From the NCBI GenBank assembly GCA_020686985.1, contig JAJEPU010000032.1, forward strand, positions 1-36,390: a stretch of DNA of 36,390 nt, written 5' to 3'. The notes beneath the pieces are model-generated. The model had not been told where the DNA came from. It saw only the letters and a list, made by a program, of their open reading frames with translations, and did no database searches. Origin of the DNA: Brotaphodocola catenula. GTDB lineage: Bacteria; Bacillota; Clostridia; Lachnospirales; Lachnospiraceae. Both the position numbers and the translations under genes were made by a program. This document shows positions 3,537 through 20,041 of the stretch, in pieces. Each line of letters starts with the position of its first letter. Position 1 is the stretch's first letter.

Positions 3537-3559
3537 TATAATTACCATTGGTAATTATA
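3537..3559. promoter_or_regulatory. Palindromic operator of the MarR regulator
   Basis: Eleven-base arms, TATAATTACCA and its complement, flank one central base without a mismatch. The palindrome covers the -10 hexamer, so bound repressor would block RNA polymerase. Size and position fit MarR operators. Confidence 0.85.
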
Positions 3560-3581
3560 ACAAGATTTTTCATTTTGTCAA
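3554..3581 (-). promoter_or_regulatory. Consensus sigma-70 promoter of the MarR-MATE operon
   Basis: TTGACA (3581-3576) and TATAAT (3559-3554) are both perfect hexamers with a 16-base spacer. The leader to the ATG at 3502 is about 45 bases. Such a strong promoter fits a gene pair kept off by its repressor. Confidence 0.9.
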
Positions 3582-3769: not shown

Positions 3770-5515
3770 TTACAAAAGCAAACTCTCTAGCTTCTTCTTC
3801 ATCAATTCTCTTCGTTTCTGCAAAAACTGCTCAAAATTCGGATAAGTATATGCCAGATCCGGGAGATAGTGAAGATTCCGGTAAGCAATCTTCTCGTCAT
3901 CGGTCGGATAAGTCTCGGCAAACCACAGATCAAAATCCCTGTTCTGCTTCTCGATGTTCGGAATTGCAGGCAAAAGCTGAAGATTGCTCAAATCATTGAC
4001 ATGAGCGATGTACGCTTCCGCCTTCTGATCCGAAACACCGTTCTTCTCAAGCATCTTCTTCGTAAACTTGCTCTTCGGATACATGTGATCAATATGAAAC
4101 TTGTTGTTGAAATCGAGCGATGGATACAGAAGCATCAGCACGTTAAGCGTCTCCGCTTTTCCGTACTGATGCTCGAGAAGGCTCTCGATGTCGTCACTCG
4201 TGAAGACCATCGTCTTGCTCGTTCCACGCAGTTTGCTTATGATCTCATCGAACGGAAATTCCTTTGTCCCGTTGTTCTTGATGATCTCACGCATAAAGCG
4301 AAGCAGATTGTCGGGCTGTCCGCTGAAAATCCGCTTAAACAGGGACATAATCAGCCACTTCTTAATCTTTGCACGGTTCCCCTTCTGAAGCGTGGAGACC
4401 TCAAAATTTTCCGGATTTCCGATTGTCATCAGATAATAAGCGATCGGAATCACTGCATTGTTTGATTTTAAACTCTCCCGCGAAAATCCAAAACTTGCGA
4501 CAAGCACAAATGCCTGATACAGGGACTTCTTGATCTTCTGCCAGTTTGCCTCAATCTTCAGCATATTCGGCTTATTGAAATTGTCCACCTTGAATGCAAT
4601 GTTTTTAAAATCGCTCAGGACAAGCGAAGCCTTCAAGACAAAATCCTTGTTTACGCGGAATCCTCCTCCAATCCTATTTAAGAGATCTACAAAGTCCGTG
4701 ATCTCCTCCCTTGCGTCTAAACTCTCCCACTGTGCGGTGGCAATCGAGAGAAGCAGATCCGAATAGCTTAAAATCGTTCCCCCGCTGTTAACTCGGATGA
4801 AGATATTGAGCACCCGGTCAAGCTCCTCTGACTTGACTTTGTAATAGCTGATAATCGGCTGAACGTGGATCACCTTGTGCAACTGGGCGAGACAATCCAT
4901 CGCAAAATCGCCCTGATCCTCGTCATATCGATCATCCTTATAAATCTGGCGATTGATGAATTTCGTGACATCCCCGATATTTTTCATATCAAGAATCTGC
5001 CCGACCTCAAACCAGTAGTGATCGTCGTCATTGACACACTCCGTCTCCGTCAGAAAGGCAAACTCGTACCGGTCATTCTCCTCCTTCGCCGGTTCGACGA
5101 GATTTAAGTAGAGTTTTCTCTTGGGAAATGCCTCGTCATTCTTCCACTGCTTCCACGGCATCTTATACGCATAAGACCCCTTCAAGCCGATAAAAAGAGA
5201 ACTCAACCTCTGCTGACCGTCGAGAACCGCAACCGCATTGTCACTTCCACTTAAGTTGATCTTTGTGTTATGCCGTGCCTTCTTCTCGTGATAATTTTGA
5301 AAAAAGCCGTAAAAATCGTACAACGTATTCTGACCGTCTGCAAGCTCCCAAAACAGAAATGCTCCAATCGGATATTCCTGCATCACCGAATCAAACAGTC
5401 TCTCAATCTGTGTCGTGCTCCAGACAAACTCCCTCTGAATCGACGGTAGAACATACCGATTCTCCGAAATATCTCCGATTACATCCGCGATTGTCAATGG
5501 TGATTCATATGCCAT
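3770..5515 (-). CDS. DUF262 and DUF1524 (HNH) protein, GmrSD-type nuclease
   Basis: This is a 581-residue protein of the GmrSD/type IV restriction family, which hydrolyse nucleotides with the DUF262 domain and cut modified DNA with an HNH domain. The N-terminal DUF262 domain shows LPSIQREFVW (about 23-32) and the catalytic-type DGQQR (99-103). The C-terminal DUF1524 nuclease shows HIDHMYP (474-480) and NDLSNLQLLPAIPNIEKQN, the spaced His and Asn of the HNH fold. Both domains are in one chain and no key residue looks lost. GGGAGGGAG lies close before the ATG. It stands last in the leftward island, after a terminator (5607-5642), so it probably has its own promoter. The target modification is unknown. 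Confidence 0.9.
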   Translation of the reverse strand: MAYESPLTIADVIGDISENRYVLPSIQREFVWSTTQIERLFDSVMQEYPIGAFLFWELADGQNTLYDFYGFFQNYHEKKARHNTKINLSGSDNAVAVLDGQQRLSSLFIGLKGSYAYKMPWKQWKNDEAFPKRKLYLNLVEPAKEENDRYEFAFLTETECVNDDDHYWFEVGQILDMKNIGDVTKFINRQIYKDDRYDEDQGDFAMDCLAQLHKVIHVQPIISYYKVKSEELDRVLNIFIRVNSGGTILSYSDLLLSIATAQWESLDAREEITDFVDLLNRIGGGFRVNKDFVLKASLVLSDFKNIAFKVDNFNKPNMLKIEANWQKIKKSLYQAFVLVASFGFSRESLKSNNAVIPIAYYLMTIGNPENFEVSTLQKGNRAKIKKWLIMSLFKRIFSGQPDNLLRFMREIIKNNGTKEFPFDEIISKLRGTSKTMVFTSDDIESLLEHQYGKAETLNVLMLLYPSLDFNNKFHIDHMYPKSKFTKKMLEKNGVSDQKAEAYIAHVNDLSNLQLLPAIPNIEKQNRDFDLWFAETYPTDDEKIAYRNLHYLPDLAYTYPNFEQFLQKRRELMKKKLESLLL

Positions 5516-5606
5516 CTTCTTCTCCCTCCCCGTTTTTCCATTATTATTTTTTGTGTTATCTATCTTTTTCGTTCTCTACGTTTGTCGCTTGCTTCCCTCT
5601 CATTGA

Positions 5607-5642
5607 AAAATGGAGGATTCCGAAACAGAATTCCTCCATTTT
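5607..5642 (-). terminator. Rho-independent terminator of the ter gene cluster
   Basis: Arms AAAATGGAGGA (5607-5617) and TCCTCCATTTT (5632-5642) are perfect complements with a 14-base loop. On the minus strand a T-run continues past the stem. It lies 163 bases after the last TerD stop. The structure is nearly symmetric and could also work rightwards. Confidence 0.8.
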
Positions 5643-5664
5643 CCATTCATGCTATCATCTACTT

Positions 5665-5691
5665 ATTCAAGTCGACGCAAGCATCGACTTG
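5665..5691. repeat. Short hairpin carrying a motif shared with 22632-22645
   Basis: CAAGTCGA (5668-5675) and TCGACTTG (5684-5691) form an eight-pair hairpin. Bases 5665-5678 (ATTCAAGTCGACGC) recur exactly at 22632-22645 beside another terminator. The 5516-5804 gap holds this, the terminator above, and otherwise no gene that I can see. Confidence 0.4.
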
Positions 5692-5804
5692 GCGCGATTC
5701 TGGCAGGCTTTGCTGACATCTTCCTATCAGAATCACGGCTCACATTTCTATGGACTTTGGTTCTTTACTGCATCTTGAGCTTTGCAAATCACCCATCTTG
5801 CCTC

Positions 5805-6398
5805 TTACAGATAGCGTTTTGCAAACTCTCCGATCGAGCCATCCGCGGTTCCCTGCCCGACTGCGTTGAACTTCCACTCGCCGTTGTGGCGATATACCTC
5901 GCCAAACAACATTGCGGTCTGGTTGAAATAATTATCCGTCAGATTGTAAATGCACATCTCCTTGTTGTTTCTTGCGTCCACGAGGCGGATAAATGCATTT
6001 CGGATCATTCCAAAATGCTGATGACGCTTGTATGCCTCATAAATATTGACCGCAAGCACAATCCGGTCATACTGCGCCGGAACGCGATTCAAATCAATGA
6101 CAATCTGCTCATCATCTCCCTCGCCCGCTCCGGTGAGGTTATCCCCCATATGCTGTACCGATCCGCTCATATGAGTCAGATTGTGGAAATAGACAATATC
6201 TTTATTGTCTACGAGCTTTCCATTCTGGAGCATCAGCGCAAACGCATCACAGTCGATCGCCTGCGGACTCGAGAGAAATGAAAAGAATCCTCCCGGCTGT
6301 TTCACCTCATCCCAGCCAAGTCCCACAATAATTTTTGATAATCCTGCATTTTCCTTTGACAGACTGACTTTCTGTCCCTTTTGAAGTTTTACAGACAT
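5805..6398 (-). CDS. TerD family protein, divergent paralogue
   Basis: This is a 197-residue TerD-domain protein of the tellurium/stress-resistance family. TerD domains bind calcium and act in the cytoplasm near the membrane in stress and phage-related responses. It opens with the family start LQKGQKVSLSKENAGLSKIIVGLGWD and keeps [15 protein letters not shown] (85-99) and [14 protein letters not shown] (168-181). Compared with its neighbour, the DFDLDASAF site is replaced by AIDCDAFAL (about 47-55) and IYDADKR by IYEAYKR (119-125). The GTG at 6410 overlaps the ribosome site itself, so I chose ATG 6398, eleven bases after AGGAGG. It is the last gene of the ter cluster. Confidence 0.92.
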   Translation of the reverse strand: MSVKLQKGQKVSLSKENAGLSKIIVGLGWDEVKQPGGFFSFLSSPQAIDCDAFALMLQNGKLVDNKDIVYFHNLTHMSGSVQHMGDNLTGAGEGDDEQIVIDLNRVPAQYDRIVLAVNIYEAYKRHQHFGMIRNAFIRLVDARNNKEMCIYNLTDNYFNQTAMLFGEVYRHNGEWKFNAVGQGTADGSIGEFAKRYL

Positions 6399-6460
6399 CT
6401 CCTCTGTCACCTCCTAAACGATTGGAACAACTTTCCGTAATAAATAATTGACTTAAATCA

Positions 6461-7042
6461 TTACTCTGCATCAATTCCATAATGTGCGCAGAGTGCGGCA
6501 AGACCACCTTGGAATCCACTTCCAATCGCATTGAACTTCCACTCGCCATTGTGCTTATAGAGTTCTCCGACTACCAGTGCTGTCTCGATCGAGAAATCTT
6601 CTCCGAGATCAAAGTGAACGATCTCCTCGCCGGTCGCCTCATCCACAATTCGACAATAGGAATTCGATACCTGACCGAAATTCTGGCGTCTCTTATCTGC
6701 ATCATAAATCGTGACCGTGAACGCAATTCTCTCAATATTTGCAGGAACAAGGCTTAAATCCACCTCGATCTGCTCATCGTCGCCCTCGCCTGCTCCGGTA
6801 CGGTTGTCTCCCATATGCGCCACAGCACCGCTCTGATGCTCCAAATTTCCATAGAAAATAAATTCCTGATCGGTCGGGCATTTTCCATTTGCTCCGGTGA
6901 GGAATGCAGACGCATCGAGATCAAAATCTGCTCCGGAGTCAAATGCATTGACATCCCATCCAAGTCCCACCATAATTTTTTTGAGTCCCGGATTCTCCTT
7001 TGTAAGGCTGACTTTTTGTCCTTTTGATAAATTGATAGGCAT
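6461..7042 (-). CDS. TerD family protein, canonical calcium-binding type
   Basis: This is a 193-residue TerD-domain protein. It has the full set of family features: [26 protein letters not shown] at the start, [11 protein letters not shown] (37-47) with alternating Asp residues that in TerD structures help hold calcium, [15 protein letters not shown] (78-92), IYDADKR (112-118) and [15 protein letters not shown] near the end. An AAGGAGG site lies nine to ten bases before the ATG. It stands between telA and the second TerD with gaps of about 120 and 60 bases, and probably shares their transcript. A role in calcium-linked membrane or stress signalling is inferred from the family. Confidence 0.94.
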
Positions 7043-7165
7043 AATCGCTTCCTCCTTGTCATTTCTTTTTTATTTTTATGGGTGGTCAAAAAAACCATCC
7101 ATTTTTATCTTTCCTGTACCACAGTCCACACACGAATTGTCTCGGTCATCCTACTTTTTCTCTCT

Positions 7166-8302
7166 TTACCTCTTGCTTGGCATATGATACTTCTGGTTGA
7201 ACTCCTGCTTGATCGCCTCAAGACGCTTTGCATCCTCGACTCTCTGTCTGCGCGCATTGTCCTGAATTGCTCTCGTCTCATCAATTCCATTCACGATCGT
7301 TCTCCACGTCGTCTCAAGCGTCTCAATCTTGATTGAACTTCCCGATGCCAGTTTCGAGGTCAGCTTCGCCTGTTCCACCGTGTTTCGCGCATTCTTGACG
7401 AGAAGCTCATTCGTCTTTGCATCGAGTGCCGCCATCGATTCTGCCTGAATCTTCTGGCGTTTAAGCATCATCGCCTGTGCTAGTGACTGCTTAAAGACCG
7501 GAAGCGTGATGATAAATGCCGAATTGATCTTTCTGACAAGATTCATGTTGCTGAATTCCATCGTCTTCAGCATCGGAATCGACTGGATCGCAACGCTCTC
7601 CGCCGTTCTCAAATCCTGAGTTCTCTGCTCTAAAAGCATCAGACACTGATTTAAGTTTGTGAGTTCAAACTGAATCGACTGATCCCCGGTCGCCTCCATA
7701 TCCGCCTGTCTCTGTGCGATATAGTTCTCGATCTCTCTGCATCCCTGCTCTCCGGCAAGAATATATTTGACAAGCTCATGATAGTAGTTGACATTCGCCT
7801 CAAAAATCTGGTCGAGCTTCCGGTTGGACTGCTTGATCTCCGACTCGTACTGTTTGAGCTGAACATAGATCTTGTCGACTTCCCCGCCCATCGTGTGATA
7901 TTTGTCGAGAATCTGGTCGAGCTTCTTTCTCATATTTCCGAACAGTTTATCGAAAAATCCCTTGCTCTCCTTGATCTCCTCAATATCGAATTTGTCCATG
8001 ATCTTTGCAAGTGCGCCGAGCATCTGACTCGACTCGTCGAGCTGTGCCAGATTCATGCTGTTTAACACGACATCCGACACCTTTGAGATCTCCTCCGCCG
8101 CATGCGCACCAAACGTGACGATGGTCTCCATATTGTCAATCTCAATCGTGCTGACAAGCGCATCGACCTCCGCAGAATTTGTCCATTCATGATTCATCTG
8201 CTGACGATCTGCCACAATATCATACTGCTGAACAACCAGTTCATCCTTCGGCTCCTCCTGTGGTTCCGGTGCCTTTGATGATTTGCTGAAATCAAGCCCC
8301 AT
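7166..8302 (-). CDS. telA: Toxic anion resistance protein, TelA/KlaA (YceH) family
   Basis: This is a 378-residue mostly helical cytosolic protein of the TelA family, found with TerD proteins in tellurite- and stress-resistance operons. Its biochemical role is not established. After an acidic, Pro-rich start (SKAPEPQEEPKDEL) come long coiled helices, for example KSKGFFDKLFGN-type stretch at about 105-125, LEQRTQDLRTAESVAIQSIPMLK, and the conserved region MNLVRKINSAFIITLPVFKQSLAQAMMLKRQ. The open frame reaches further upstream, but ATG 8302 has AGGAGG ten bases before it and gives the family start. It begins four bases after the YceG-like stop, so the two are coupled. This matches the yceG-yceH order of Bacillus subtilis. 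Confidence 0.92.
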   Translation of the reverse strand: MGLDFSKSSKAPEPQEEPKDELVVQQYDIVADRQQMNHEWTNSAEVDALVSTIEIDNMETIVTFGAHAAEEISKVSDVVLNSMNLAQLDESSQMLGALAKIMDKFDIEEIKESKGFFDKLFGNMRKKLDQILDKYHTMGGEVDKIYVQLKQYESEIKQSNRKLDQIFEANVNYYHELVKYILAGEQGCREIENYIAQRQADMEATGDQSIQFELTNLNQCLMLLEQRTQDLRTAESVAIQSIPMLKTMEFSNMNLVRKINSAFIITLPVFKQSLAQAMMLKRQKIQAESMAALDAKTNELLVKNARNTVEQAKLTSKLASGSSIKIETLETTWRTIVNGIDETRAIQDNARRQRVEDAKRLEAIKQEFNQKYHMPSKR

Positions 8303-8306
8303 ATCG

Positions 8307-10646
8307 CTATATCCTCCTCTTAAAGTTAAAGATTTTCTCACACCACCCAGGGCGCTGTGTATGCAGGGAAAGCCGATCGAAATCGGGCACCTGCTGTTCA
8401 TACCGGTATGTGCCAATCTGATGTTCCTCAAAAATTCTCTCACGGAAAAACCGCTCCACACACTGATATCCGGTCGGAACAAACATCAAAATATCAAACC
8501 CGACCAGATTCAGAAATGCCATCTGAATCGAATCCTCAAGAGACATCATCTCCTCCCCGGTTATAAGATAAATCAGCTTTGGATTCTTCTTTGTAAAATC
8601 AAATCTCTGGATCATTCGCAGCAGAGATTTATCCAGATTCAAAGCTATCGACACAATCGTAAATTCCGTTCCATTTTCCCCGGTTCCGCGAATCGTCTTC
8701 CGGTCAATCAAGAGCTGAATCTTGTCAAGCAGGTAATCCTGCATCGGCTCCCGCAAAAATCCATACGGATAGGCGCGATGCTGTCGGATTTTTTCTCGCT
8801 GAAGACGACCGTTTCTGAAAAATTCCACGGCAAACGGCTTGATCGGATTCTCTGAGGCAGAAGTCAGGTTCGGAATTTTGCTGATCACCGTTACATTTTC
8901 TGTGTCTGCTGTGATCAGCTCCTTGATCGATTGCCAGTAGATCCCCATGATCCCATCTTTCACACCGGAAATCTTAGAGAAGATCACCGGTATATTGACG
9001 GTATCCGAAAATGTGCTGAAATTCGGGCGGTACTTCAACTCCTGATTCCACAGGATCGGAATCTCCTCATACATTGTCTGCAAGGTGATCGTATTCGCCT
9101 TCGCATACTGCTGTTCCCGGTAAATCCCGCTGTCCTGATACATCAGCGTGTCAAGCTCCCGCTCCGCATGGTAGGCAACCGTCCCGACTCTGAGTCCTGC
9201 GCTCGCCTCCGGATAGGACGAGAGCGAGAGCGAAAACGGATAATTCACCTCATACAGGGACGAATCTGTCAGAGCACAGGTCTCATTGAGATCCGGCTGA
9301 AAAATCACGACATCGACAGGAAGTCTCGCAATCAACCTGCAAAATATCGCCTCTTTCTCATTCTTACAACCACCAAGATAAAAGAAACCGGAAATCTCAG
9401 GCTTCTTCCATCTATGAAAGAGATCCCGCTGATAGCGCTTCAGCCAACAGATCAGGTAAACCGCCGTATTTATCAGTCGATTTAAGGAATTTGAATTTGG
9501 ACTGTTTTCCCGTCGTCCTTCCTCCGCCATAACCTCCACAAAGGCTTTTCTCATCATCGGTTGAAGCTCAAAATTTTCTGAACAGACGAGATTTCGCGAT
9601 AAATCTTCCAAAACCTGATTTAAATTCGGATAACTGTTTTTTCGCTTTACCTCTTGAGTCTCCTCGACTGTCGGCGGAGAAATCCGCTGATTGACAATTA
9701 CAAGTCTTCGCCCGCTCCCTCGAATCGCCTGTCCGAGCTGATAGAGTTCATTTTCATAAGTAAGTTTGTCCGAAACGCCACGAATCCGGCAAAAACAATT
9801 ATAAAAAAATCGTGTATCATTCCCACGCTCTCCCGCAGACTCTTTGATTTGCTCAATCAGATCGATTTTTGCGGAAAGCCAGACATTTGTCGCAGGAATC
9901 AGAGAGGACACTCCCGAAAATCCCCCGCCGTACAAGCGTTCTTGGCTCTGCTCAGTCTCGAGCTCCTCGCGAATCTGCTTTAAATCAAAGGAGTCCGGAA
10001 AATTCTGTGCCCCGCCCGCTCCAAATGCTGACACCGGTATCTCCTCCGAGATCTCCGATTGCGGGTCCACACTCCGGTAAGCGTCATCCCCGTGATACTC
10101 TAAGATCACCAGATCACAGCCTGCCTGCGTGAGTACCCGCATCAACAGCAGTTCGTAAATGCTGATCTCCCCCTCATAGAGAATCTTTGGAAGTTTCTCC
10201 TCTCCGAGATGGTTGACGATCCGCTCAAATCGGTAATAGAGCCAGCACATGAACTTGATATATGCATTTTTCAGCATATTGTCATTTTTCCCACTCTCAC
10301 GCAGGTGAAGCAGTGTTGCATAGATCGCGCCGGATACATTTGCCCTCTGCCTCTCATTCATCCGCGGAAGCCATTTTTTGAGTCTCTGCGAGAAAAAGTT
10401 CTGGTCAATCTCAAACGCGGTCCCCATCATCTCCTGATAATAATCGAGCTGGCGCTGATCGGGATTCTTTAATTTTCCCTCCACAATCACTCCGGACAGG
10501 CGCGCCGTCTCGTAATATTTTCGGATAAATGCATGAACCTGTGAATTATATTCATGGATTCGACAGGCGTAAATCCCCCTGCGATTCCGTTTTCCCAGTT
10601 CCAGGAAATAATCATCGGGATTTTGCAGTGAAACACGCTCTAGCAT
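8307..10646 (-). CDS. YceG-like protein of Ter stress systems
   Basis: This 779-residue protein resembles the YceG family (a proposed component of a biosynthetic module linked to Ter genes), judged from its gene position and from segments such as YCRIHEYNSQ-like N-terminal sequence, YIKFMCWLYYRFE and LPKILYEGEISIYELLLMRVL (about 150-185). A second, similar block appears in the C-terminal half (TAVYLICWLKRYQRDLFHRW, PVDVVIFQPDLN), so the protein may hold two related domains. It has no membrane span. Bacillus YceG is shorter, at about 540 residues as I recall. AAAGGAG lies nine bases before the ATG. TelA starts four bases after the stop and a rhomboid gene ends 21 bases before the start. Its reaction is unknown. 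Confidence 0.8.
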   Translation of the reverse strand: MLERVSLQNPDDYFLELGKRNRRGIYACRIHEYNSQVHAFIRKYYETARLSGVIVEGKLKNPDQRQLDYYQEMMGTAFEIDQNFFSQRLKKWLPRMNERQRANVSGAIYATLLHLRESGKNDNMLKNAYIKFMCWLYYRFERIVNHLGEEKLPKILYEGEISIYELLLMRVLTQAGCDLVILEYHGDDAYRSVDPQSEISEEIPVSAFGAGGAQNFPDSFDLKQIREELETEQSQERLYGGGFSGVSSLIPATNVWLSAKIDLIEQIKESAGERGNDTRFFYNCFCRIRGVSDKLTYENELYQLGQAIRGSGRRLVIVNQRISPPTVEETQEVKRKNSYPNLNQVLEDLSRNLVCSENFELQPMMRKAFVEVMAEEGRRENSPNSNSLNRLINTAVYLICWLKRYQRDLFHRWKKPEISGFFYLGGCKNEKEAIFCRLIARLPVDVVIFQPDLNETCALTDSSLYEVNYPFSLSLSSYPEASAGLRVGTVAYHAERELDTLMYQDSGIYREQQYAKANTITLQTMYEEIPILWNQELKYRPNFSTFSDTVNIPVIFSKISGVKDGIMGIYWQSIKELITADTENVTVISKIPNLTSASENPIKPFAVEFFRNGRLQREKIRQHRAYPYGFLREPMQDYLLDKIQLLIDRKTIRGTGENGTEFTIVSIALNLDKSLLRMIQRFDFTKKNPKLIYLITGEEMMSLEDSIQMAFLNLVGFDILMFVPTGYQCVERFFRERIFEEHQIGTYRYEQQVPDFDRLSLHTQRPGWCEKIFNFKRRI

Positions 10647-10667
10647 GATGACTCTCTCCTTTCCGGT

Positions 10668-11342
10668 CTACCTACTCATCAAAAAAAATCCAAACCAAGC
10701 CCCGACAACTCCACCGAGAATATGCGTAAAGTTGGAGATGTTGCTCGGCACGAAAATTCCTTCATAGATCTGCCCGCCCAGATAAAAGATTGCGACGAGA
10801 AGAAACGTCAGCGGTATGTAGTGTTCCCGGATACTCGTAAATGAGGAGAGCAGAATAAAGGCGGATACCACCCCGCTCGCCCCCAAAAGCTGAGTATGTG
10901 GAAACAGAAGGAAACTTGCAATTCCCGTCACAAACGCCGTGATCAATATGACAACCAATAGATTCAGAGAACCGTATTTTTCTTCCAACATTGGTCCGAT
11001 AATCAGAAGAAGCGTCATATTTCCAAGCAGATGATCGAGACTGGCATGTCCAAAGACATGACCGATCAGCCGAACATAGGTAAACGGACTCGACAGCGAA
11101 GCTCGATATACGCTGAAAAACATGGTTGTAGTTCTTCCTCCACTGAGCCACCCCATCAGCCATGCGACCAGACAGATCAGCGCAAAGCAAAGCACAACCG
11201 GAGAATTAAAAGAAATGCTCCATCCTCTACTGTTTTTCAATCGTTTTCCCCTTCTCATCCGTCCTGGCGCCCTTTCTTTCCGACCTCCAACAGAATCTCC
11301 GTTATCTTTCCCATTGACAGACTGCGATTTTCTTTTTTGCAT
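10668..11342 (-). CDS. Rhomboid family intramembrane serine protease
   Basis: This is a 224-residue membrane protease that cuts helices inside the membrane. A basic cytosolic N-terminus (about 1-45, rich in Arg and Lys) is followed by six or so spans. The rhomboid signatures are all present: HASLDHLLGNM (99-109), catalytic Ser156 in GASG, and catalytic His207 in NFTHILGGVVGAWFG. ATG 11342 has AAGGAG five bases upstream. The open frame reaches 11474, but that part overlaps a large hairpin and has no ribosome site. It lies 21 bases ahead of the YceG-like gene, so it appears to lead the ter transcript. A rhomboid here is not part of the textbook ter operon. Confidence 0.9.
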   Translation of the reverse strand: MQKRKSQSVNGKDNGDSVGGRKERAPGRMRRGKRLKNSRGWSISFNSPVVLCFALICLVAWLMGWLSGGRTTTMFFSVYRASLSSPFTYVRLIGHVFGHASLDHLLGNMTLLLIIGPMLEEKYGSLNLLVVILITAFVTGIASFLLFPHTQLLGASGVVSAFILLSSFTSIREHYIPLTFLLVAIFYLGGQIYEGIFVPSNISNFTHILGGVVGAWFGFFLMSR

Positions 11343-11371
11343 CCCCGCTCCTTCTATAATGAAACGAAAAC

Positions 11372-11424
11372 TGGCGAAAGCATACGGACAGAACTCAATC
11401 TGTTCTCTCCAGACGCTTTCGCCA
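11372..11424 (-). terminator. Long stem-loop between the Ca2+-ATPase and rhomboid genes
   Basis: Arms TGGCGAAAGC (11372-11381) and GCTTTCGCCA (11415-11424) are perfect complements, and the interior ACAGA...TCTGT pairs again. On the minus strand a T-rich stretch (GTTTTCGTTTC) follows, so it may end ATPase transcription, fully or partly. It could instead be an attenuator of the ter cluster, because the rhomboid ATG is only 30 bases further on. Confidence 0.55.
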
Positions 11425-11501
11425 AACTCATCAAAATCTCCTGCGACTGAAGCCGGGAGAATCTCCGCTATCATCCAAAAACTGCTATAACTTCGTACAT
11501 G

Positions 11502-11566
11502 AACTTAACCTCGTACTTAATTCCTACTTGATTTTCTACTTAACCTTCCACCTCACGTCCTACTTG
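11502..11566 (-). repeat. Degenerate 12-base tandem repeats after the ATPase stop
   Basis: On the plus strand TACTT-type cores start at 11502, 11514, 11525, 11537 and 11561, a spacing of 11-12 bases or twice that. On the minus strand each reads AAGTA(G/C), and the ATPase stop codon TAG sits in the first copy. This looks like slippage within the 3' untranslated region. Confidence 0.45.
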
Positions 11567-14157
11567 TGTGCAGTCAGTAACTTTCTTACCGCATCGATCG
11601 GAATGACCATAAATGCCAGAACCAGGCAGATCAGCCAGGACTTCAGGCTCAGGCTCTCAACACTGAGCATCTCTCCGCCGAAGGTGACAAACACAAACTG
11701 CATCACAAAGATCGACAGCATAACGAGAAGGAAATTCTTATTTCTCATCAGGTTCTCAAACGGATTGATGTGAGCGGTTCTCGCATTGAATCCGTTGAAT
11801 GTGATCGCCATCATAAACGTCGCAAACAGTGCCGATTTGAGGTAGGTCATATCGACATCTCCGAACAGGTTTCTGATCGGTGCAAAGAAGAGAATCGACA
11901 GACAGATAACGGTAATATAAAGTGCACTGATAATTACCTCAATCAGCATATCTTTCGTGACAATGCTCTCATTTCTCGGAACCGGTTTGTCTTTCATATA
12001 CTCTCGAAGTGCCGGCTCACTTCCGAAGGCGATCGCCGCAAGCGTATCCATTGCAAGGTTGATCAACAGAAGCTGAATAACCGTCAAGATTACATTTTCA
12101 CCCAAAAGCGGTCCAATAAAGCAGGACAGAACCGCCGACACATTTACCGTCAGCTGGAAGATCAGGAACTTGCGGATGCTCTTAAACATTGTACGTCCGT
12201 ACAGGATTGCCTTCTCAATCGAGGAGAAGTTGTCGTCGAGAATCGTGATGTCTCCCGCCTCCTTTGCAACCTCCGTACCGCTTCCCATTGCAAATCCAAC
12301 ATCCGCTTTTTTCAGAGCCGGGGAATCGTTGACACCGTCTCCTGTCATTCCGACTACCTCCTCGAGCTCCTGTGCCAGTCTCACGAGACGGCTCTTGTCC
12401 GTCGGAAGTGCTCTTGCGACAACTCTCAGATGCGGAAGAATCTTCTTCATCTCCTCGTCGCTCTTCTCTGCCATCTCCGCAGAAGTCAGAGCGACATCTT
12501 CCGGATTCACAAGCAGACCTGCCTCTTTTGCGATTGCGACAGCGGTCTCTTTTCGGTCACCGGTTACCATGACAACCTGAATTCCCGCATTCTGTACCTC
12601 ATGGATCGCATCAGCTGCCTCCTTGCGGACGTTATCACGGATACTGATCACACACACGAGAGTCAGATCGCCCTCATCAGACTCGCCCTCTCTCTTTGCA
12701 ACTGCAAGAAGTCTCATCGAACGTCCTGCCTGTGCATCCATATGCGCGATCAGGTAATTCTTCTCAACGAGTTCTTTCGTCTCACCGTTCTCATCAATGT
12801 AATGCGTACATCTCTCAATGATTCGCTCCGGCGCACCTTTGATGTAAGTCATGCTCTTGCCATCGCGCTGAACGGTTACGCTGGAAAATTTCTTTGCGGA
12901 ATCAAACGCGTTAAAGTTTCTCGCCTCTTCCTTCGCAATCGAATTTACAACCTTTGAGTCAATCAGGTATGCCATCAGTGCACGGTCGGTGCTGTTTCCA
13001 CCGATGATCGAGCCATTTGAGGCAACTGCACTGTTGTTGATTCCGGTTCCGATGATCACATCCTCTGCAAGATTGGACGGCATCTTGGAAAGCTCCTTAA
13101 ATGGAACAACATTTCCTGTCACAAGCTCTACAACAGACAGGCGACCCTCGGTGATCGTACCGGTCTTATCGCTGAAGAGAATGCTCAAACTTCCTGCGGT
13201 CTCAAGACCGTTGATCTTTCTGACGAGGACGTTGTCCTTTGCCATTCTAAGGCTCTGAAACGACAGCAGAATCGAGGTCAGCATCGGCAGACCCTCCGGC
13301 ACTGCACAGACAATGACCGTGATTGCGACGGTAATTGCATCGAGAAGCAGGCGAATCCATCCATAAATTCCAGTCGGAAGCGCGCCCGTTATAAACGTCT
13401 TTGCAAGAATTCCTACAACGATTGCACCTGCGCCGATATAGCCAAACTTGGAAATCTGCTGAGCGAGAACGCCGAGCTTTACCTGAAGCGGAGTCTGTCT
13501 CGTCTCCTCCTGCACCTCAAGCGCAAGCTCTCCGAACAGCGTCTTGTCTCCGACTACCCTGATCTCTATATAGCCTTCTCCGCCACAAACGACGGTTCCG
13601 CGATATGCATAATGCTTATTGAGCAAATCTTTCACATCATACGAAGTCTTCTCATCCGGACACGGAATCTTCGTTGCCTCCTCAGTCTCACCGTTGAGTG
13701 CTGCCTGATCGACCTTGAGAGCACCTTCCACGACAACTCCATCTGCCGAAATCTTGTCGCCCGCCTGAAGATACACGAGATCTCCAACCACAACCTCACT
13801 CACATGAATCTCGAGAAGTTTTCCGTCTCGAATGACTTTTGCGATCTCCTTTGCCTCTTCCTCTTCCTTGAGGGCAGACGCCTTGTTTTCCTGTTTGTTC
13901 TCACTGATCGATGCAACTCCATTTGCAATCACAATCGCAATCAGAATTCCTACCGGCTCAAACCATTCCGCCTGTCCGAGCAGAAAAAGTCCGATCTGAA
14001 CAACCAGTGCGACCAGCAAAATTATAATCATCGGATCCTTGAAACCTTCAAGAATCTTTTTCCACAACGGGTCCGCCGGAATCTGCGTCAGCTCATTCGA
14101 GCCATGCTGTTTGCGACTCTCTTCTACCTGTTTTGATGACAGTCCCTGCAACTTCAT
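11560..14157 (-). CDS. P-type calcium-transporting ATPase (PMCA/LMCA1-like)
   Basis: This is an 865-residue P-type cation pump of the Ca2+-exporting group, in the inner membrane. The first span pair is at about 41-82, the actuator loop has ALNGETEEATK (153-163), span 4 has the ion-site motif VPEGLP (286-291), and the phosphorylation site is Asp330 in SDKTGTITEG. The hinge has MTGDGVNDSPALKKADVGFAMG, followed by six C-terminal spans. Length and motifs fit LMCA1-type pumps. AGGAG lies close before the ATG. A promoter (14310-14338) separates it from mcrC. Its place beside calcium-binding TerD genes suggests calcium as the shared theme. Manganese or sodium/potassium transport cannot be excluded from sequence alone. 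Confidence 0.93.
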   Translation of the reverse strand: MKLQGLSSKQVEESRKQHGSNELTQIPADPLWKKILEGFKDPMIIILLVALVVQIGLFLLGQAEWFEPVGILIAIVIANGVASISENKQENKASALKEEEEAKEIAKVIRDGKLLEIHVSEVVVGDLVYLQAGDKISADGVVVEGALKVDQAALNGETEEATKIPCPDEKTSYDVKDLLNKHYAYRGTVVCGGEGYIEIRVVGDKTLFGELALEVQEETRQTPLQVKLGVLAQQISKFGYIGAGAIVVGILAKTFITGALPTGIYGWIRLLLDAITVAITVIVCAVPEGLPMLTSILLSFQSLRMAKDNVLVRKINGLETAGSLSILFSDKTGTITEGRLSVVELVTGNVVPFKELSKMPSNLAEDVIIGTGINNSAVASNGSIIGGNSTDRALMAYLIDSKVVNSIAKEEARNFNAFDSAKKFSSVTVQRDGKSMTYIKGAPERIIERCTHYIDENGETKELVEKNYLIAHMDAQAGRSMRLLAVAKREGESDEGDLTLVCVISIRDNVRKEAADAIHEVQNAGIQVVMVTGDRKETAVAIAKEAGLLVNPEDVALTSAEMAEKSDEEMKKILPHLRVVARALPTDKSRLVRLAQELEEVVGMTGDGVNDSPALKKADVGFAMGSGTEVAKEAGDITILDDNFSSIEKAILYGRTMFKSIRKFLIFQLTVNVSAVLSCFIGPLLGENVILTVIQLLLINLAMDTLAAIAFGSEPALREYMKDKPVPRNESIVTKDMLIEVIISALYITVICLSILFFAPIRNLFGDVDMTYLKSALFATFMMAITFNGFNARTAHINPFENLMRNKNFLLVMLSIFVMQFVFVTFGGEMLSVESLSLKSWLICLVLAFMVIPIDAVRKLLTAHK

Positions 14158-14176
14158 TTTTTTCTCCTATTTTCTC

Positions 14177-14338
14177 CTATCTTTTCCCTAATCCGGAACC
14201 AAAGTCTGAATTAAATTCCAAATCGCATTCTGGATCAAATTTTGAATCAACTTCTGGGTCCATATTGAGAATTTTTTCGGCAATCTCGTCAAGAAATTGT
14301 CTAAACAATATTTTATAAAATATCTCGTTTTTTGTCAA
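14177..14338 (-). other. Possible small ORF or relic of a duplicated mcrC end
   Basis: One frame is open across the mcrC-ATPase gap and ends with TAG at 14177. It has a TTG at 14338 and an ATG at 14263, neither with a ribosome site. Its product would be acidic, with an eight-residue degenerate repeat (DPEVDSKF, then DPECDLEF). Its upstream part resembles the McrC C-terminus: RQFLDEIAEKIL here against RQLDEIVKTNLL there. The promoter above lies inside it, so it may well be noncoding. Confidence 0.2.
14310..14338 (-). promoter_or_regulatory. Promoter of the Ca2+-ATPase gene
   Basis: TTGACA (14338-14333) and TAAAAT (14315-14310) have a 17-base spacer, and the leader to the ATG is about 150 bases. 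I looked for a yybP-ykoY manganese riboswitch in this leader and did not see one. Confidence 0.65.
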
Positions 14339-14381
14339 TACATGCTTGGTGTGAATACAAAAAACCTTTGCGCTTCCATTC

Positions 14382-15446
14382 CTATCCGTGTCCAGTAAGA
14401 AGATTTGTTTTCACAATCTCATCGAGCTGTCTCGCAATCCCTGAGAACTTTTGGTTCAAGTCCAGTGTCTTCACGCTGATCCGATTTCCACCGATCACAA
14501 ACTCGCAGTCCGGCGTGATCTCCTCCTCCGTCTTCGCATACAAAAGAAGTCCCGATACCTTCCCGCTCCCCATGACATCCTGATTTTTTACATAGGTAAA
14601 GATCTGATAAAGGTTTCCAGAGTGAATCGTCTCCTTCTCATAATGGCTCTGCATCGTGTGACCGTAATATTTTGCGTCAATAATCAAAATCTCATCACCC
14701 AATCGCAAAAAAATATCCGTCTGCATCACCGGAAGGAAATGAATCATCCGAGACTGTGGTCTTTCCGTCAAATTCCACTTCACCTGCGCTGACCGCACCT
14801 CATTGAGTTCCGGGTGATGACACCTGATATACTCCAGAATAAACTTCTCGTAGAGCCGGTGCATCGATTCTTCCGAAAATGTCATCATCCGGTATCCACC
14901 TGCCTCCTCCGTCTGGATCATCCCCTCGTCAACGAAATAGCAGAGATTGAGAAGCATCTCATAATTCGCGTTTCCGCGCTCGTAGCGAAGCGACTCCCAG
15001 CAGATCTTGGAAACGTCCACGGAATCCACCTCATGAAAGAAGGAAATCAGTTTTTTGAGCCTTGCCCGCCTTGCCCTCTTCACCTGTGAATCCCGAATCA
15101 GAGTTTCCATCGTTGCCTTTAAAATCTGATTGAACAGGTTGTTTACCGACATCTCCTCACACTCGCACTGCATCTGTCGTTTTCTCTGAATCTGATTGCG
15201 GATGGTTCCTGCAATCAGCAACTTTCCGCGCACAGTCGACAAATCTTCCTCACGACTCACATACGTCCGATAAAGTCCCTGTTTTAACTGACGGGAAATT
15301 CCGCGAAACAAAATCTCCGCAAAGAGATCCGAGATCTCCTCAAACTCCTCCGCAACCACATCCTCATAAGAGTTCTGGCGTAGCACCTGAAATGCATACG
15401 CCAACATGTAATAAACATTTTTGATGAAAATTCCTTTGTCCTTCAT
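14382..15446 (-). CDS. mcrC: McrC family subunit of a McrBC-type restriction system
   Basis: This is a 354-residue partner of McrB that supplies the DNA-cutting domain in type IV restriction of methylated or otherwise modified DNA. The N-terminal half is the McrC beta-rich and helical region beginning IFIKNVYYMLAYAFQVL. The C-terminal PD-(D/E)xK nuclease core is seen as Asp244 in MQTDIFLRLGDE and Asp257/Lys259 in LIIDAKYYG, with a following Gln in LYQIFTYV. It starts 40 bases after mcrB. Sequence and length match the McrC group that often accompanies McrB in Clostridia. The recognised DNA modification cannot be predicted. Confidence 0.92.
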   Translation of the reverse strand: MKDKGIFIKNVYYMLAYAFQVLRQNSYEDVVAEEFEEISDLFAEILFRGISRQLKQGLYRTYVSREEDLSTVRGKLLIAGTIRNQIQRKRQMQCECEEMSVNNLFNQILKATMETLIRDSQVKRARRARLKKLISFFHEVDSVDVSKICWESLRYERGNANYEMLLNLCYFVDEGMIQTEEAGGYRMMTFSEESMHRLYEKFILEYIRCHHPELNEVRSAQVKWNLTERPQSRMIHFLPVMQTDIFLRLGDEILIIDAKYYGHTMQSHYEKETIHSGNLYQIFTYVKNQDVMGSGKVSGLLLYAKTEEEITPDCEFVIGGNRISVKTLDLNQKFSGIARQLDEIVKTNLLTGHG

Positions 15447-15486
15447 AAATTTTTACTTTAATAAGTCCATAAATCTTCGATAAATC

Positions 15487-17283
15487 CTACATAAATTGTC
15501 TATCAAATTTTTGTCGTTTATTCACGACCCGGTCTTCCCGATTTACTTTATTTTTCCCTATTTTTGTCTCCAACACGCCTTTCAGCCGTCTCTCCCATCC
15601 TGCCAGTCGTTCTCTCTCGTCAAACCAGTACTCACGAAGCATCGGGAGAATGTCGTAATTCACAACCATCTTCATCCACTCCAATGTACAGGTTTCCCGA
15701 TTTTGTCCGCAAAAATAACTGTGACCGATGCAAAATCCATCTCCAAGAGAGTCATCCTCCCAAATCTCCCGATTTAAGTCCACGATCTGTTCAATCAGCC
15801 GGTCAAACACTTCATTTTGCAGGGATTTCTGATAATTTTGAAAGCCCTCAGATGAGAATCCAGGCTCCATCTCAAAGAAACTGAACCGCCTGCGCAGAGC
15901 ATAGTCGATCATCGCAAGACTTCGATCCGCCGTGTTCATCATACCAATCAAATAGAGATTTTCCGGCACTGAAAACAGTGTCTGGCTGTACGCCAGCGTC
16001 GCCGGTGTTCTTCGATACTCCTTTTCAATCAGCATCAGAAGTTCACCAAAAATTCGACTCAAGTTTCCACGATTGATCTCATCAATCAGAAAGAAATATT
16101 CATGGTCAGGATCTTTCTCTGCCTGTTTGCAGGCGCGATAAAAGATTCCCTCTCTGAGCTTAAATCCCTCTCTGACCGGCTTGTAACCCATAATAAAATC
16201 TTCATACGAATAACTCTGGTGAAACTGGATCAGACGAATTCTTGACTCATCCTTTTTTTCCATCATCGCATACGCGAGGCGCCTTGCCGTAAACGTCTTT
16301 CCGACTCCCGGGGCTCCCTGCAAGATCAGATTCTTCTTATTTCTTAGCAGAGCCACAAGCGTGTTAAAATCCTCTTCCCCGATATACACTTCGCTCAGAA
16401 AATCCTCTTTTGTATAAGATTCCGATTCAGATTGATCGCACGGAGAAAGTTCGCAATTCGATTCCCCGCTGTTATTCCAACTCGCGATCGGTTCTCGACT
16501 TCTGTCTCGATATCGTGCTTCCCCTGACTCTCGATCTCTGTTGTGACCTCTATCTTGCCCTTTATCCCGATTTCCATCTCGATCGTGATCCTTCTTGCCC
16601 CGATTTCCATAAAAACGACTCACAAAAAATGCGAGATCAGTCGTCATCGTGATCTTCTCCGGATCAGGATAACAAGACTCATCTGCCAAATCCCGAAACA
16701 TCTGGTCTAGCTCCGAATCCCTGCGGATCACATCCCGAATCTCCTCATAAAGCTGGTACGTTCCTCTGACATTCAGAATTGCATCTCCGCGAATCGGCAA
16801 AAAATCTGACTCCACCGCCTGCGCAAGCGCAAGTGCATCCGAATATTTATACACATAATACTGATCTGGATTTTTCAGCCACAGATACGTTGTGATTGCA
16901 TTTGCCATCTGATAGTGATGATTCCACGTTCCATCATCGTACTTCATCCGAAGCCAGTCCGCCGAAGCCTGAAACTGACCAATTCTTAACGCAAGATCCT
17001 CCGACTCATCAAACAGACTGCAAAACATACTCCGAACCGCCTCTGCGTCAGCACTCGCAAACTGACCAATCATCCTGCGCGGATAATTACTCCGGTTTGC
17101 AAGCAGATTTGCCGTCTTTTCTGTTGCCTTCATAAACATCTGCCGAAAATCATCCGCCTCAAGATCCCAGTATCTCTGAAAATGCAGGATTGCTCTCCAT
17201 TTATAGCGTTCCCTGTTCCAGTGTTCCGGGAAATACTTCTTGTAGGCAGAAAGAATCTCTGCCAGATTTTCTGGATGAAACAT
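15487..17283 (-). CDS. mcrB: McrB family AAA+ GTPase of a McrBC-type restriction system
   Basis: This is the 598-residue motor and DNA-recognition subunit that assembles with McrC on modified DNA. The N-terminal part (1-220) is an unassigned recognition region found in clostridial McrB proteins. Then follows a low-complexity Arg/Asp-rich linker (about 227-262), and the AAA+ core: Walker A GAPGVGKT (323-330), FHQSYSYEDF (354-363), Walker B FFLIDEINRGN (397-407) and the McrB hallmark MNTADRS (449-455), as in GTP-hydrolysing McrB. AGGAG directly abuts the ATG at 17283, which is unusually close. An AAGG further back may be the true site. No in-frame upstream ATG was found. Confidence 0.92.
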   Translation of the reverse strand: MFHPENLAEILSAYKKYFPEHWNRERYKWRAILHFQRYWDLEADDFRQMFMKATEKTANLLANRSNYPRRMIGQFASADAEAVRSMFCSLFDESEDLALRIGQFQASADWLRMKYDDGTWNHHYQMANAITTYLWLKNPDQYYVYKYSDALALAQAVESDFLPIRGDAILNVRGTYQLYEEIRDVIRRDSELDQMFRDLADESCYPDPEKITMTTDLAFFVSRFYGNRGKKDHDRDGNRDKGQDRGHNRDRESGEARYRDRSREPIASWNNSGESNCELSPCDQSESESYTKEDFLSEVYIGEEDFNTLVALLRNKKNLILQGAPGVGKTFTARRLAYAMMEKKDESRIRLIQFHQSYSYEDFIMGYKPVREGFKLREGIFYRACKQAEKDPDHEYFFLIDEINRGNLSRIFGELLMLIEKEYRRTPATLAYSQTLFSVPENLYLIGMMNTADRSLAMIDYALRRRFSFFEMEPGFSSEGFQNYQKSLQNEVFDRLIEQIVDLNREIWEDDSLGDGFCIGHSYFCGQNRETCTLEWMKMVVNYDILPMLREYWFDERERLAGWERRLKGVLETKIGKNKVNREDRVVNKRQKFDRQFM

Positions 17284-17373
17284 CTCCTCATTCCGCCCTT
17301 CTCTATTTATTCTATCCTTTTCAATCCACTTTTCTCGGTTTGCACTTTTATTTTCTCATAATATTAAAAACTT

Positions 17374-19191
17374 TTAAAATATAAGTCCATATTTTTTTAT
17401 TAAAAACTGGTCGACATCTACCTGATCACGCTCTTTCACATACTCAATTTCTGCCTTTGTAAAAACAGGTAAAGAAAATTTCTCTATATATTTTTTTTGA
17501 TAACAGTAATATCCACCTTCTATGCTGTAACTGGTGTTTTGAACATAATAATCCATAATTGCTGAATTTAAAACTTTAATCAAAAAGCCAAGCTCATATT
17601 TATCATTTTCAAATACTGCATATCCATTGCAGAACAAAGTGTCCTTATTTTCCACATAATAGAATTTCGGTTTTTGTGAAAATGTCGGAAACAACAATTT
17701 CTTTCCATATTTGTTTAATCCCTGTGTTCTTCCATATGCATACCAACCCTGTTTGTTTTTCTTTCCTTTATCTCGAGAATCTAGGATCTCCTTTTGTGTC
17801 AGTAAATACTTATACGTCCTAAAATAACGTTTTTTTAAAACATCTTCAGGTATAATTGTATATCCCTGATCTGCATGTACATATGGAAAAATAATATAAC
17901 GCTGCGCTTTTAAAAGAGTCTCACATTTTTTTAATTCTGGAATTTTATAAATTGGTTTTATGAGCTCAGAATCTAACTCATACCGTTCTTCCCCTGCTGT
18001 CACAAAAAAGCCATCTTGATCTTTCTGTGCAAAATAAACCTGATCTTTTAATGTTGCAATTCCTGTTCTAACAAAATCTTTAATTAAGGTACCCTGATTT
18101 TCAATTCTATGCAAATTTTCCCATGTTTGCCGATTTACCAACTTCCAGCCTTCTTGATCTAACTGGCAAATTGGCATTTTGCAAAATCTAATATCTTTAA
18201 GTTCTTTTTCAATACACTCTGCTCGATCCATAACCGCATACTCAAACTCTTCCTGTTTTTTTCTTGAAAGAAATAAAATGCAATTATAAGTACGAACTGG
18301 CTTAAATACCATATTTTCTCCAAAGTCTAGAATTCTTCTCAAGAAAGCATGTTCTTTCAAATATTTTCTTAACTCTAAAGCAGATTTAATTGTCAAGAAA
18401 TTATTTGGAACAATAAATCCTAATCTTCCATCTTCTGAGAGTTGATCCATAGCATGTTCAATGAATGCATAAAAAATATTAAAAGTACCATTTACCGTCG
18501 TTTCAAAAGTATTTTTCAAAAATTCTATGGTATCTTTACTCAAATCGTGTGGATTCACATATGGAGGATTTCCAATCACATACGAAAAGCCAATTCTCTG
18601 ATTTAAATGAAAAGTATCTTTCCATCTCTCTTTCAGACTATTTTTGCATACGATATGAGGAATTTCACTTATTTCCTCCCCATACTCTTTGGTCAAAAGT
18701 CTCATAACCAATTTGCATCTTCGCACATTATCCTTGTTGATATCTATTCCAAAAATATGATCCCTCAGCAACTTTTTAATGGAAATCTGAAACCTTTCAT
18801 GAATATATTCGATTGCAGAAACTAAAAAAATTCCACAACCACAACCAGGATCTATAATCGTAATCGTATCATCCCACACCATCAAGTCAGAAAACAAATT
18901 TTGAACAATGTAATCTGCAATATATTTGGGAGTAAAAACAATTCCATTTTCCGTTGTCTCCTGATTTTCCAGCAAAAACTCAAATAGCTCTATCACCGAT
19001 TCGATTGTTCCTGAAAAACCACTTGTTGACAACTCATATGCTACTTGTTCTGCTTTCTCAGAACCTATTAAAAAATTTTGTTCTGGATGTAATGCATATT
19101 CAAAAATTCCATTTTCAATTTCATCCATCTCAAATTTTTCTAATTTCTGTATAATAGAACGATAGTCTTTTATACGGTTACTCTTTTCCAT
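17374..19191 (-). CDS. N6-adenine DNA methyltransferase, Eco57I/TaqI type
   Basis: This is a 605-residue restriction-modification methyltransferase. SAM-binding motif I is DPGCGCGIF (114-122), preceded by GIVFTPKYIADYIV (83-96). The catalytic motif is NPPY (208-211), which marks methylation of adenine N6. The C-terminal 250 residues are a target-recognition region with YGRTQGLNKYGKKLLFPTF and end in a coiled tail. It starts 28 bases after the neighbouring putative endonuclease and the two form one unit. A fused nuclease domain is not seen, which fits a separate type II enzyme. Both genes are clearly more AT-rich than their neighbours, a sign of transfer. Target sequence unknown. Confidence 0.92.
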   Translation of the reverse strand: MEKSNRIKDYRSIIQKLEKFEMDEIENGIFEYALHPEQNFLIGSEKAEQVAYELSTSGFSGTIESVIELFEFLLENQETTENGIVFTPKYIADYIVQNLFSDLMVWDDTITIIDPGCGCGIFLVSAIEYIHERFQISIKKLLRDHIFGIDINKDNVRRCKLVMRLLTKEYGEEISEIPHIVCKNSLKERWKDTFHLNQRIGFSYVIGNPPYVNPHDLSKDTIEFLKNTFETTVNGTFNIFYAFIEHAMDQLSEDGRLGFIVPNNFLTIKSALELRKYLKEHAFLRRILDFGENMVFKPVRTYNCILFLSRKKQEEFEYAVMDRAECIEKELKDIRFCKMPICQLDQEGWKLVNRQTWENLHRIENQGTLIKDFVRTGIATLKDQVYFAQKDQDGFFVTAGEERYELDSELIKPIYKIPELKKCETLLKAQRYIIFPYVHADQGYTIIPEDVLKKRYFRTYKYLLTQKEILDSRDKGKKNKQGWYAYGRTQGLNKYGKKLLFPTFSQKPKFYYVENKDTLFCNGYAVFENDKYELGFLIKVLNSAIMDYYVQNTSYSIEGGYYCYQKKYIEKFSLPVFTKAEIEYVKERDQVDVDQFLIKKYGLIF

Positions 19192-19219
19192 TTAAGTTTC
19201 TTTCTCCAATTATCTTATC

Positions 19220-20041
19220 TTACACCAACAAATTTTGTATCTGGTAACGCTCTGAATAAATCTCCAGAATCTCTTTTACAAAATTTTGAAAGTTCAATTC
19301 CTCATACTCTATGTTAAAATCTTCTGAAATCAGTCCTGCTTCTTTCAACTGATTGCTATTCGAGAACAAAAGAGGTTGCTCTTTATCAAAATCAACAATC
19401 AATAGAGCACATCTTTCATAACTATAATCTGGACCTCCAATTTCTCTACGATTGATTCCACTGAAAAAGCTAATATATTTTTCAAGATCCGTCTGTTTCT
19501 TTTTAAATCCAACCACCTTCTGTTTTACCAATTGATCATCATATTCATGAGTTGGAATCAGATAAACTTCTCCTAAAACAATATTGGAATAACGCATATG
19601 AAGATTTTGCGCCTCTGCAAAAGTTCTCTCAAAAAGAGTGTCCGCATTCTTTGCTAGACTACTCATCTGACTTCTCACATTTACAATCAGTGTATTCTCT
19701 GAATATTCTTCCCCATAAAGATCCACTTTTCTCAAAAATGCCAATGGTCCCCAACTAATTAACGTTGGGATCGGTTCTATGTTAGAAGGAACAATGCAGA
19801 TGTCCTGATCTTTTTGCTTTAAAAAACCTGCTATTTTTAATTCTGGTTTTGTTTCATAAAGATGAGGATAAATATTATCAGGGCATACTCCTGCTTCTAT
19901 GAATTCCTGTTTTACACCGTCATGGATAAGATTAATCAGGCTAGAGGATCGAATCACTGATTCTTTTCCTCTAGCACCATCCTCAAGAATCGCTTCTTCT
20001 ATTAGTTTCTTAAACTTATACAACTGTTTATCCATAAACAT
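19220..20041 (-). CDS. Probable type II restriction endonuclease, family not recognised
   Basis: I do not recognise the family of this 273-residue protein. It precedes the methyltransferase by 28 bases, so its likely role is the cutting partner. It is soluble and rich in Glu and Lys. A possible PD-(D/E)xK-like patch is PELKIAGFLKQKDQDICIVPS (about 66-86), and SQMSSLAKNADTLFERTFAEA looks like a conserved helix. The catalytic residues cannot be fixed. ATG 20041 has GGGAGGG ten bases upstream, and a TATAAT (20072-20067) sits nearby as a -10 box with no clear -35. Base use is AT-rich, like the methyltransferase. An unrelated hypothetical gene remains possible. Confidence 0.65.
   Translation of the reverse strand: MFMDKQLYKFKKLIEEAILEDGARGKESVIRSSSLINLIHDGVKQEFIEAGVCPDNIYPHLYETKPELKIAGFLKQKDQDICIVPSNIEPIPTLISWGPLAFLRKVDLYGEEYSENTLIVNVRSQMSSLAKNADTLFERTFAEAQNLHMRYSNIVLGEVYLIPTHEYDDQLVKQKVVGFKKKQTDLEKYISFFSGINRREIGGPDYSYERCALLIVDFDKEQPLLFSNSNQLKEAGLISEDFNIEYEELNFQNFVKEILEIYSERYQIQNLLV

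Follow-up and report, generated by a model that had tools for sequence, protein, structure and literature searches.

Does a run of genes for Ter proteins, an ion pump and several DNA restriction enzymes, all on one strand, form one system or several? We addressed this question for positions 3770-20041 of a 36,390-nt stretch of DNA from Brotaphodocola catenula (JAJEPU010000032.1, hereafter the window), which is contig 38 of a 112-contig, 3.3-Mb genome. A first-pass annotation, made from the sequence alone, had read this run as a single joint defence or stress system. The eleven leftward genes and the names it gave them were confirmed by a check of the open reading frames (ORFs), all eleven of which are open, and by Pfam, PADLOC and NCBIfam. 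Along the leftward strand they encode an endonuclease, a methyltransferase, McrB, McrC, a calcium ATPase, a rhomboid, YceG, TelA, two TerD proteins and a GmrSD-like protein. Its interpretation fared unevenly: Ter proteins, a calcium pump and a rhomboid are indeed joined, and repeatedly so, while the join with the restriction genes, and the joining of three functional parts discussed below, were not supported. We consider it very probable that the stretch holds four units that work independently, namely a Ter module (5805-14157), a Type II restriction-modification pair (17374-20041), a Type IV McrBC pair (14382-17283) and a single-chain GmrSD-like Type IV enzyme (3770-5515). The common strand of the eleven genes is no special signal, because the four ORFs to the left of the stretch (HAD, a 112-aa ORF, MATE and MarR) share that direction.

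The Ter module comprises six genes, all on the minus strand like every feature of the run described below. These encode TerD-domain protein 2 (TerD2) at 5805-6410 (PF02342, 2.3e-75), TerD-domain protein 1 (TerD1) at 6461-7042 (PF02342, 1.9e-86), TelA at 7166-8317 (PF05816, 4.7e-99), a YceG_bac protein at 8307-10646 with three matched stretches (PF14266, 1.1e-116), a rhomboid intramembrane serine protease at 10668-11474 (PF01694, 9.1e-21) and a PMCA-type calcium-translocating P-type ATPase at 11560-14157, here called the pump. The YceG_bac protein had no PDB sequence match at E 0.1. The GASG and FTHILGG stretches of the rhomboid align with GlpG (GlpG homologue 2nr9), with the catalytic Ser placed in GxSG and the His in the last helices.

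YceG_bac matched 41 of the 397 family genomes, 40 of them over the curated cut-off, and in the genus a single genome of 24, the source genome itself. The YceG places in the other family genomes gave 37 related ter loci, after three of 40 with short or weak matches (G020, G076 and G355) had been left out, and their ORFs were compared with the window proteins by blastp at more than 60 bits. TerD-domain proteins, TelA and YceG_bac stand in one cluster, as judged by Pfam and, in the related loci, by blastp. TelA is present in 36/37 loci, and best matches to TerD1 and to TerD2 are present in 34/37 each; in loci with a TerD behind TelA, the first such protein shares 70-84 % identity with TerD1. A calcium ATPase occurs in 32/37 loci, 31 times after terD and once (L029) before YceG, and a rhomboid in 13/37, each time directly before YceG. 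Contig ends truncate three of the five loci without the ATPase (L038, L045 and L127). Outside the family, we compared seven of nine other matching genomes (eight stretches), leaving out two matches under the cut-off. One of them (G533) has the TerD-TelA-YceG set with an adjoining pump, in another (G579) the pump is partial and lies about 4 kb beyond the set, and the remaining five have a YceG-TelA pair with no pump detected. The six genes are a real, recurring module in related bacteria.

The main finding, a modest one, concerns TerC and the pump. The usual membrane metal exporter of Ter systems is TerC. We found no TerC (PF03741) in any of the 38 module-bearing genomes (0/38, source genome included), nor in the seven ter-bearing genomes of other families; the same model matched 9 of 14 control genomes, 8 of them over the cut-off. 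The pump is an E1-E2 ATPase with Cation_ATPase N and C domains (Pfam) and passes the PMCA-type model TIGR01517 with 642 bits (cut-off 507). The downstream pump of L033 passes as well (558 bits), and that of L113, in a stretch whose end was set by hand, stays under the cut-off (461 bits). Calcium is the likely ion, because the pump carries the residues DKTGT, PEGLP and NLAMDT, aligned with plant calcium ATPase 8. This form of the ter module, in which a calcium pump stands where TerC would be expected, is real and recurs. Among the matches listed in a search of the open-licence literature, no description of a TerD-TelA-YceG cluster with a calcium ATPase was found.

The restriction genes behave differently. 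None of the 37 related ter loci contains a BLAST relative of McrB, McrC, the methyltransferase, the endonuclease or the GmrSD-like protein. McrBC occurs in 69/397 family genomes (68 over the cut-off), and 14/397 genomes have both YceG and McrBC. The two lie near each other, about 4 kb apart, in the source genome only. In G332 one contig carries both, 57 kb apart, and in G185 the distance is about 275 kb or more. The other eleven genomes are draft assemblies with the two on different contigs, and in six of these (G088, G111, G169, G275, G298 and G386) the sequence extends about 10 kb or more on both sides of YceG. No close pair was seen in the 13 other genomes, where about 0.1 would be expected by chance. 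The first-pass annotation had named conservation of the gene order in related genomes as a check; as far as the data go, ter and restriction genes lie there in unrelated places, the outcome that it had named as speaking against its reading. The restriction genes look like chance neighbours of the ter module.

Regarding the Type II pair, an Eco57I-type N6-adenine DNA methyltransferase lies at 17374-19191 (PF07669, 4.6e-30; PADLOC MTase_II, 1e-188) and a restriction endonuclease at 19220-20041 (PADLOC REase_II, 1.7e-113; no Pfam match). We collected twelve relatives of the endonuclease from genomes of GTDB species (Clostridia, Bacillus, Sporosarcina, Helicobacter, Campylobacter and others), some with short flanks. 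All twelve adjoin a gene related to that of the methyltransferase. McrB-like and McrC-like genes were found near just one of them, in Helicobacter canis, and none were detected in the other 11/12. Judged by these comparisons, endonuclease and methyltransferase are a conserved Type II pair, with predicted roles in cleavage and protection. The GC content is 31-34 % in these two genes and 45-49 % in the other nine, and at third codon positions (GC3) it is 26-29 % in the pair; because of the difference from the other nine genes, the pair is probably a separate arrival.

The McrBC pair consists of the McrC nuclease subunit at 14382-15446 (NF007277, 371 bits against a cut-off of 338; PDB McrC, 5.9e-36) and a McrB-like AAA+ GTPase at 15487-17283 (AAA_5, 8.1e-24 at residues 318-467; PDB McrB, 1.6e-87 over residues 284-569). 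McrB scored 297 bits with NF008457 (cut-off 637), and its first approximately 280 residues, which would read the target, matched no Pfam family. The protein at 3770-5515 is a GmrSD-like single-chain Type IV restriction protein of the HEC-05/BrxU type. The PADLOC model HEC-05 covers residues 1-580 of 581 (8.1e-226, 749 bits), GmrSD_N matches with 5.8e-30, GmrSD_C reaches 20.6 bits, slightly under the 23-bit cut-off, and the stretches DGQQR and HIDHMYPKSK can be read in the sequence. Full-length relatives (31-61 % identity) were found in 8 other genomes of the 397, none of which has YceG. Weak or partial matches occur in another 29 genomes, six of them with YceG, each on a different contig.

We also looked for transcription signals between the units. 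A sigma-70-like site (11/12) lies at 14338-14310, inside the 224-nt gap 5' of the pump gene. The promoter scan returned 44 such sites versus 28.5 in shuffles, and a single site is therefore weak evidence. Between terD and the GmrSD-like gene, 3' of the ter genes, a terminator-like hairpin is found at 5604-5645 (-23.3 kcal/mol, z -3.98), whose arms at 5604-5617 and 5632-5645 are 93 % complementary. On these signals the 3770-20041 stretch need not form one transcription unit.

Several observations weigh against this division, or against the role that we give to the pump. McrBC directly adjoins the ter module in the same orientation, so that read-through is possible, and the hairpin was missed by a simple consensus terminator scan. 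One related locus (L119:1-1335) has, at its edge, a protein resembling Type IV restriction enzymes. Different contigs do not strictly exclude nearness, as the YceG contigs of G016, G162 and G001 measure no more than 6.8, 7.5 and 10.5 kb, respectively. Moreover, among the 396 other genomes 13 YceG carriers have McrBC where 6.9 are expected (Fisher two-sided p 0.013, uncorrected for genome size or kinship). This co-occurrence could stem from genome size or kinship, or hint at a loose link, and we gave it little weight. The complete loci L122 and L128 lack the pump. Finally, the absence of TerC is not specific to the module, as a sample of the family lacks it too (0/100 genomes over the cut-off, one weak match).

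The alternative that survives best is compatible with four independent units and concerns how they came together. It takes the locus for a chance defence island, in which an acquired ter module and defence systems accumulated at a single integration hotspot, with the ter genes perhaps anti-phage themselves; we regard this as rather unlikely. The presence of YceG in a single genome of the genus and the AT-rich restriction pair fit such a history, and so do signs of rearrangement nearby. These are a piece of a DDE transposase at 2-454 (+), at the left end of the window, and a shortened MATE efflux gene at 20160-21077 (-), which matches residues 155-450 of the intact MATE1 (1702-3078) with 45 % identity. 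In search of an empty site, we looked for relatives of the right-hand molybdenum-hydroxylase gene, some of them distant, and found them in 12/24 genus genomes, source included. Of the seven close loci compared, two stop at the hydroxylase gene, and the sequence that follows it in the other five holds no relative of the MATE or ter genes. No empty site could be read from them, a point against this history.

We also asked whether other ter loci tend to be flanked by defence genes. ORFs of at least 200 aa, up to three per side of the 37 loci (166/166), were scanned with PADLOC at 1e-15, and the control comprised the first 81 of 134 ORFs listed for 13 of these genomes on contigs other than those of the ter loci. 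RT-Protease_XI was matched in 15/166 flanking ORFs. These matches probably reflect the trypsin domain of a YceG-trypsin-like second protein, present in 20/37 loci (e.g. L043 5879-7408 and L030 5147-6700), with the YceG_bac-trypsin fusion seen at domain level in the one from L043. The other matches listed for the flanks (25 of 30 families in one listing) include mad3 in two ORFs and single cases of reverse transcriptase (DRT/AbiK), Cas12, AbiEi, SspA/DndA, Csx1, mad8/HerA and mREase_IV/PbeA. Control ORFs gave mad3 in three and single AbiEi, typeIV_DinG, mad2 and AriA. In this rough comparison, made with no formal test, defence models show no clear excess in the ter flanks over the control ORFs, which speaks against the hotspot.

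Mobile elements were searched for the module as well. Close-relative scans of viral contigs found neither YceG nor pump relatives, and plasmids gave two distant YceG matches (27 % and 23 % identity). Three phage-labelled records from human faeces carry YceG relatives, L142 (MT836648.1) among them. L142 and L143 (MT840059.1), both deposited as 'Bacteriophage sp.', have ter genes with a calcium pump. We do not claim phage carriage of the ter module, as both records carry the mark UNVERIFIED and could be of bacterial origin. P-type ATPases of the kind of the pump are widespread, with 130 phage records and at least 5000 plasmid records.

That the calcium pump is an unrelated neighbour of the ter module is improbable. 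The window pump lies upstream of the rhomboid gene, as opposed to after terD in 31 of the 32 pump-bearing relatives, it falls on another branch than the downstream pumps, and two complete loci do without one; all this would fit a neighbour. Against it stand the pumps in 32 of the 37 loci and the recurrence of the window-type pump, 81 % identical in L029, where it directly precedes YceG, and 72 % identical in the faecal record L143, where it stands just before the terD genes. The source genome has further P-type ATPases, of which the nearest full-length one shares 33 % identity with the pump. A tree of the 33 module pumps and two source-genome paralogues, the latter being its only ter-unlinked ATPases, resolved three fully supported branches. 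One holds the window and L029 pumps, both upstream of YceG, and the others are groups of four and of 27, both downstream of terD; the grouping of the first two branches is weak (88/77). Because no further unlinked ATPases are in the tree, it suggests that pumps may have been repeatedly recruited to the module. We put forward, as a tentative possibility with somewhat less than even chances, that the Ter response has been rebuilt around calcium in this family. A PMCA-type pump, gained more than once from different ATPase lineages, would have replaced TerC in a TerC-free background, and would act with Ca2+-binding TerD and the intramembrane protease as one Ca2+-homeostasis device.

The first-pass annotation had further taken metal sensing, a nucleoside-like metabolite and DNA processing as three parts physically joined at this locus. 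Ter systems with nucleoside-like metabolite genes were reportedly described by Anantharaman, Iyer and Aravind in 2012. Such genes do flank the ter module in many related loci: StiP-PELOTA and PRTase_2-like proteins in 21/37, a C-C bond lyase in 19/37 and a HAD hydrolase in 16/37, where Pfam named each family from one to four members and the rest were counted by BLAST likeness. A search of the window found no BLAST relative of StiP, PRTase_2, the C-C bond lyase or the HAD hydrolase, and BLAST does not relate the HAD-superfamily protein at 557-1297 to the ter-flanking one. The metabolite part, often joined to ter elsewhere (in 16 to 21 of 37 relatives), is missing in the window, and the restriction part, present in the window, was not found joined elsewhere. 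That all eleven genes form one composite system, with Ter proteins and pump as sensors of infection or stress that license the restriction enzymes, is highly improbable: the adjacency of the genes on one strand, the excess co-occurrence of YceG and McrBC, and the tie of the TerY-P triad, a different Ter part, to McrBC-derived CoCoNuT systems in the available part of PMC11090510 are outweighed by the lack of restriction relatives in all 37 ter loci, by the 0/13 other genomes with YceG near McrBC, by the missing metabolite genes and by the lack of a TerY-type VWA domain in the window proteins covered by the Pfam scans. The recurring ter module is separable from the restriction genes, and the single joint system is not supported.

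With four independent units as the preferred reading, the following division of labour can be proposed. Each of the three restriction units would, going by its families, cut foreign or modified DNA on its own. TerD proteins bind Ca2+. When envelope or chemical stress admits divalent cations into the cell, TerD, YceG and TelA would together sense or buffer them on the inner side of the membrane. The pump would export the cation, presumably Ca2+, a role held by the TerC exporter in the Bacillus yce genes, and the rhomboid might clear or activate membrane proteins. Any stress phenotype of the module, like the transport of Ca2+, the sensing and the part of the protease, is inferred, as distinct from the observed gene content, order and recurrence, the failure to find TerC and the separateness of the restriction genes. 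The available part of PMC10550928 reports that MeeF, the TerC protein of B. subtilis and a product of the yceCDEmeeF operon, shows Mn efflux activity and assists in the metalation of exported enzymes, and that the membrane protease FtsH becomes essential when MeeF and MeeY are both missing. By analogy with MeeF, the pump may fill the place of TerC and the rhomboid may serve membrane-protein quality control. A module whose metal exporter would be a pump of known ion class offers a direct experimental handle on the function of Ter proteins. Just as useful is the negative outcome, and we advise against listing the 'composite island' as a defence system that joins Ter and restriction.

Outside the run, a 12/12 promoter-like site at 21183 stands upstream of the shortened MATE gene. 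Another 12/12 consensus promoter at 3538-3581, 5' of marR-MATE1, overlaps the near-palindrome ATAATTACCATTGGTAATTAT, a likely MarR operator by its sequence. Genes at 22685-34356 encode molybdenum hydroxylase (xanthine-dehydrogenase-like) subunits, a MobA-like protein, a FecCD-type ABC transporter and a xanthine/uracil-type permease, probably a purine or Mo-enzyme cluster.

Several known systems invite comparison. The Jug huge phages have TerD and calcium-translocating P-type ATPases, in their case in separate operons, and the available part of their description mentions neither YceG nor TerC (PMC12363816). The GmrSD-like protein resembles the BrxU/HEC-05 enzymes, whose model it matches over nearly its whole length; HEC-05 is BrxU and functions independently, according to the available part of PMC11411939. 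No complete BREX system was detected among its neighbours by Pfam, PADLOC and NCBIfam scans, and the nearby methyltransferase resembles BREX PglX weakly, far under the cut-offs. The likeness to McrBC Type IV restriction lies in McrC, which is over its NCBIfam cut-off, and in the GTPase part of McrB, which matches PDB McrB; the window McrB differs in its N-terminal part, which belongs to no Pfam family, and in its NF008457 score under the cut-off. Ter systems with nucleoside-like metabolite genes are matched by the 16 to 21 related loci described above, and the window departs from them in having no relatives of those genes. The likeness to yceCDEF(G)(H) of Bacillus subtilis, the only one of the 14 control genomes matching YceG_bac, lies in TerD paralogues (we take YceC-E to be TerD proteins and YceH to be TelA), YceG_bac and TelA standing together with a membrane cation exporter. 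Where the window differs from these genes, TerC is not detected and a PMCA-type pump and a rhomboid are found instead, with the pump upstream of YceG.

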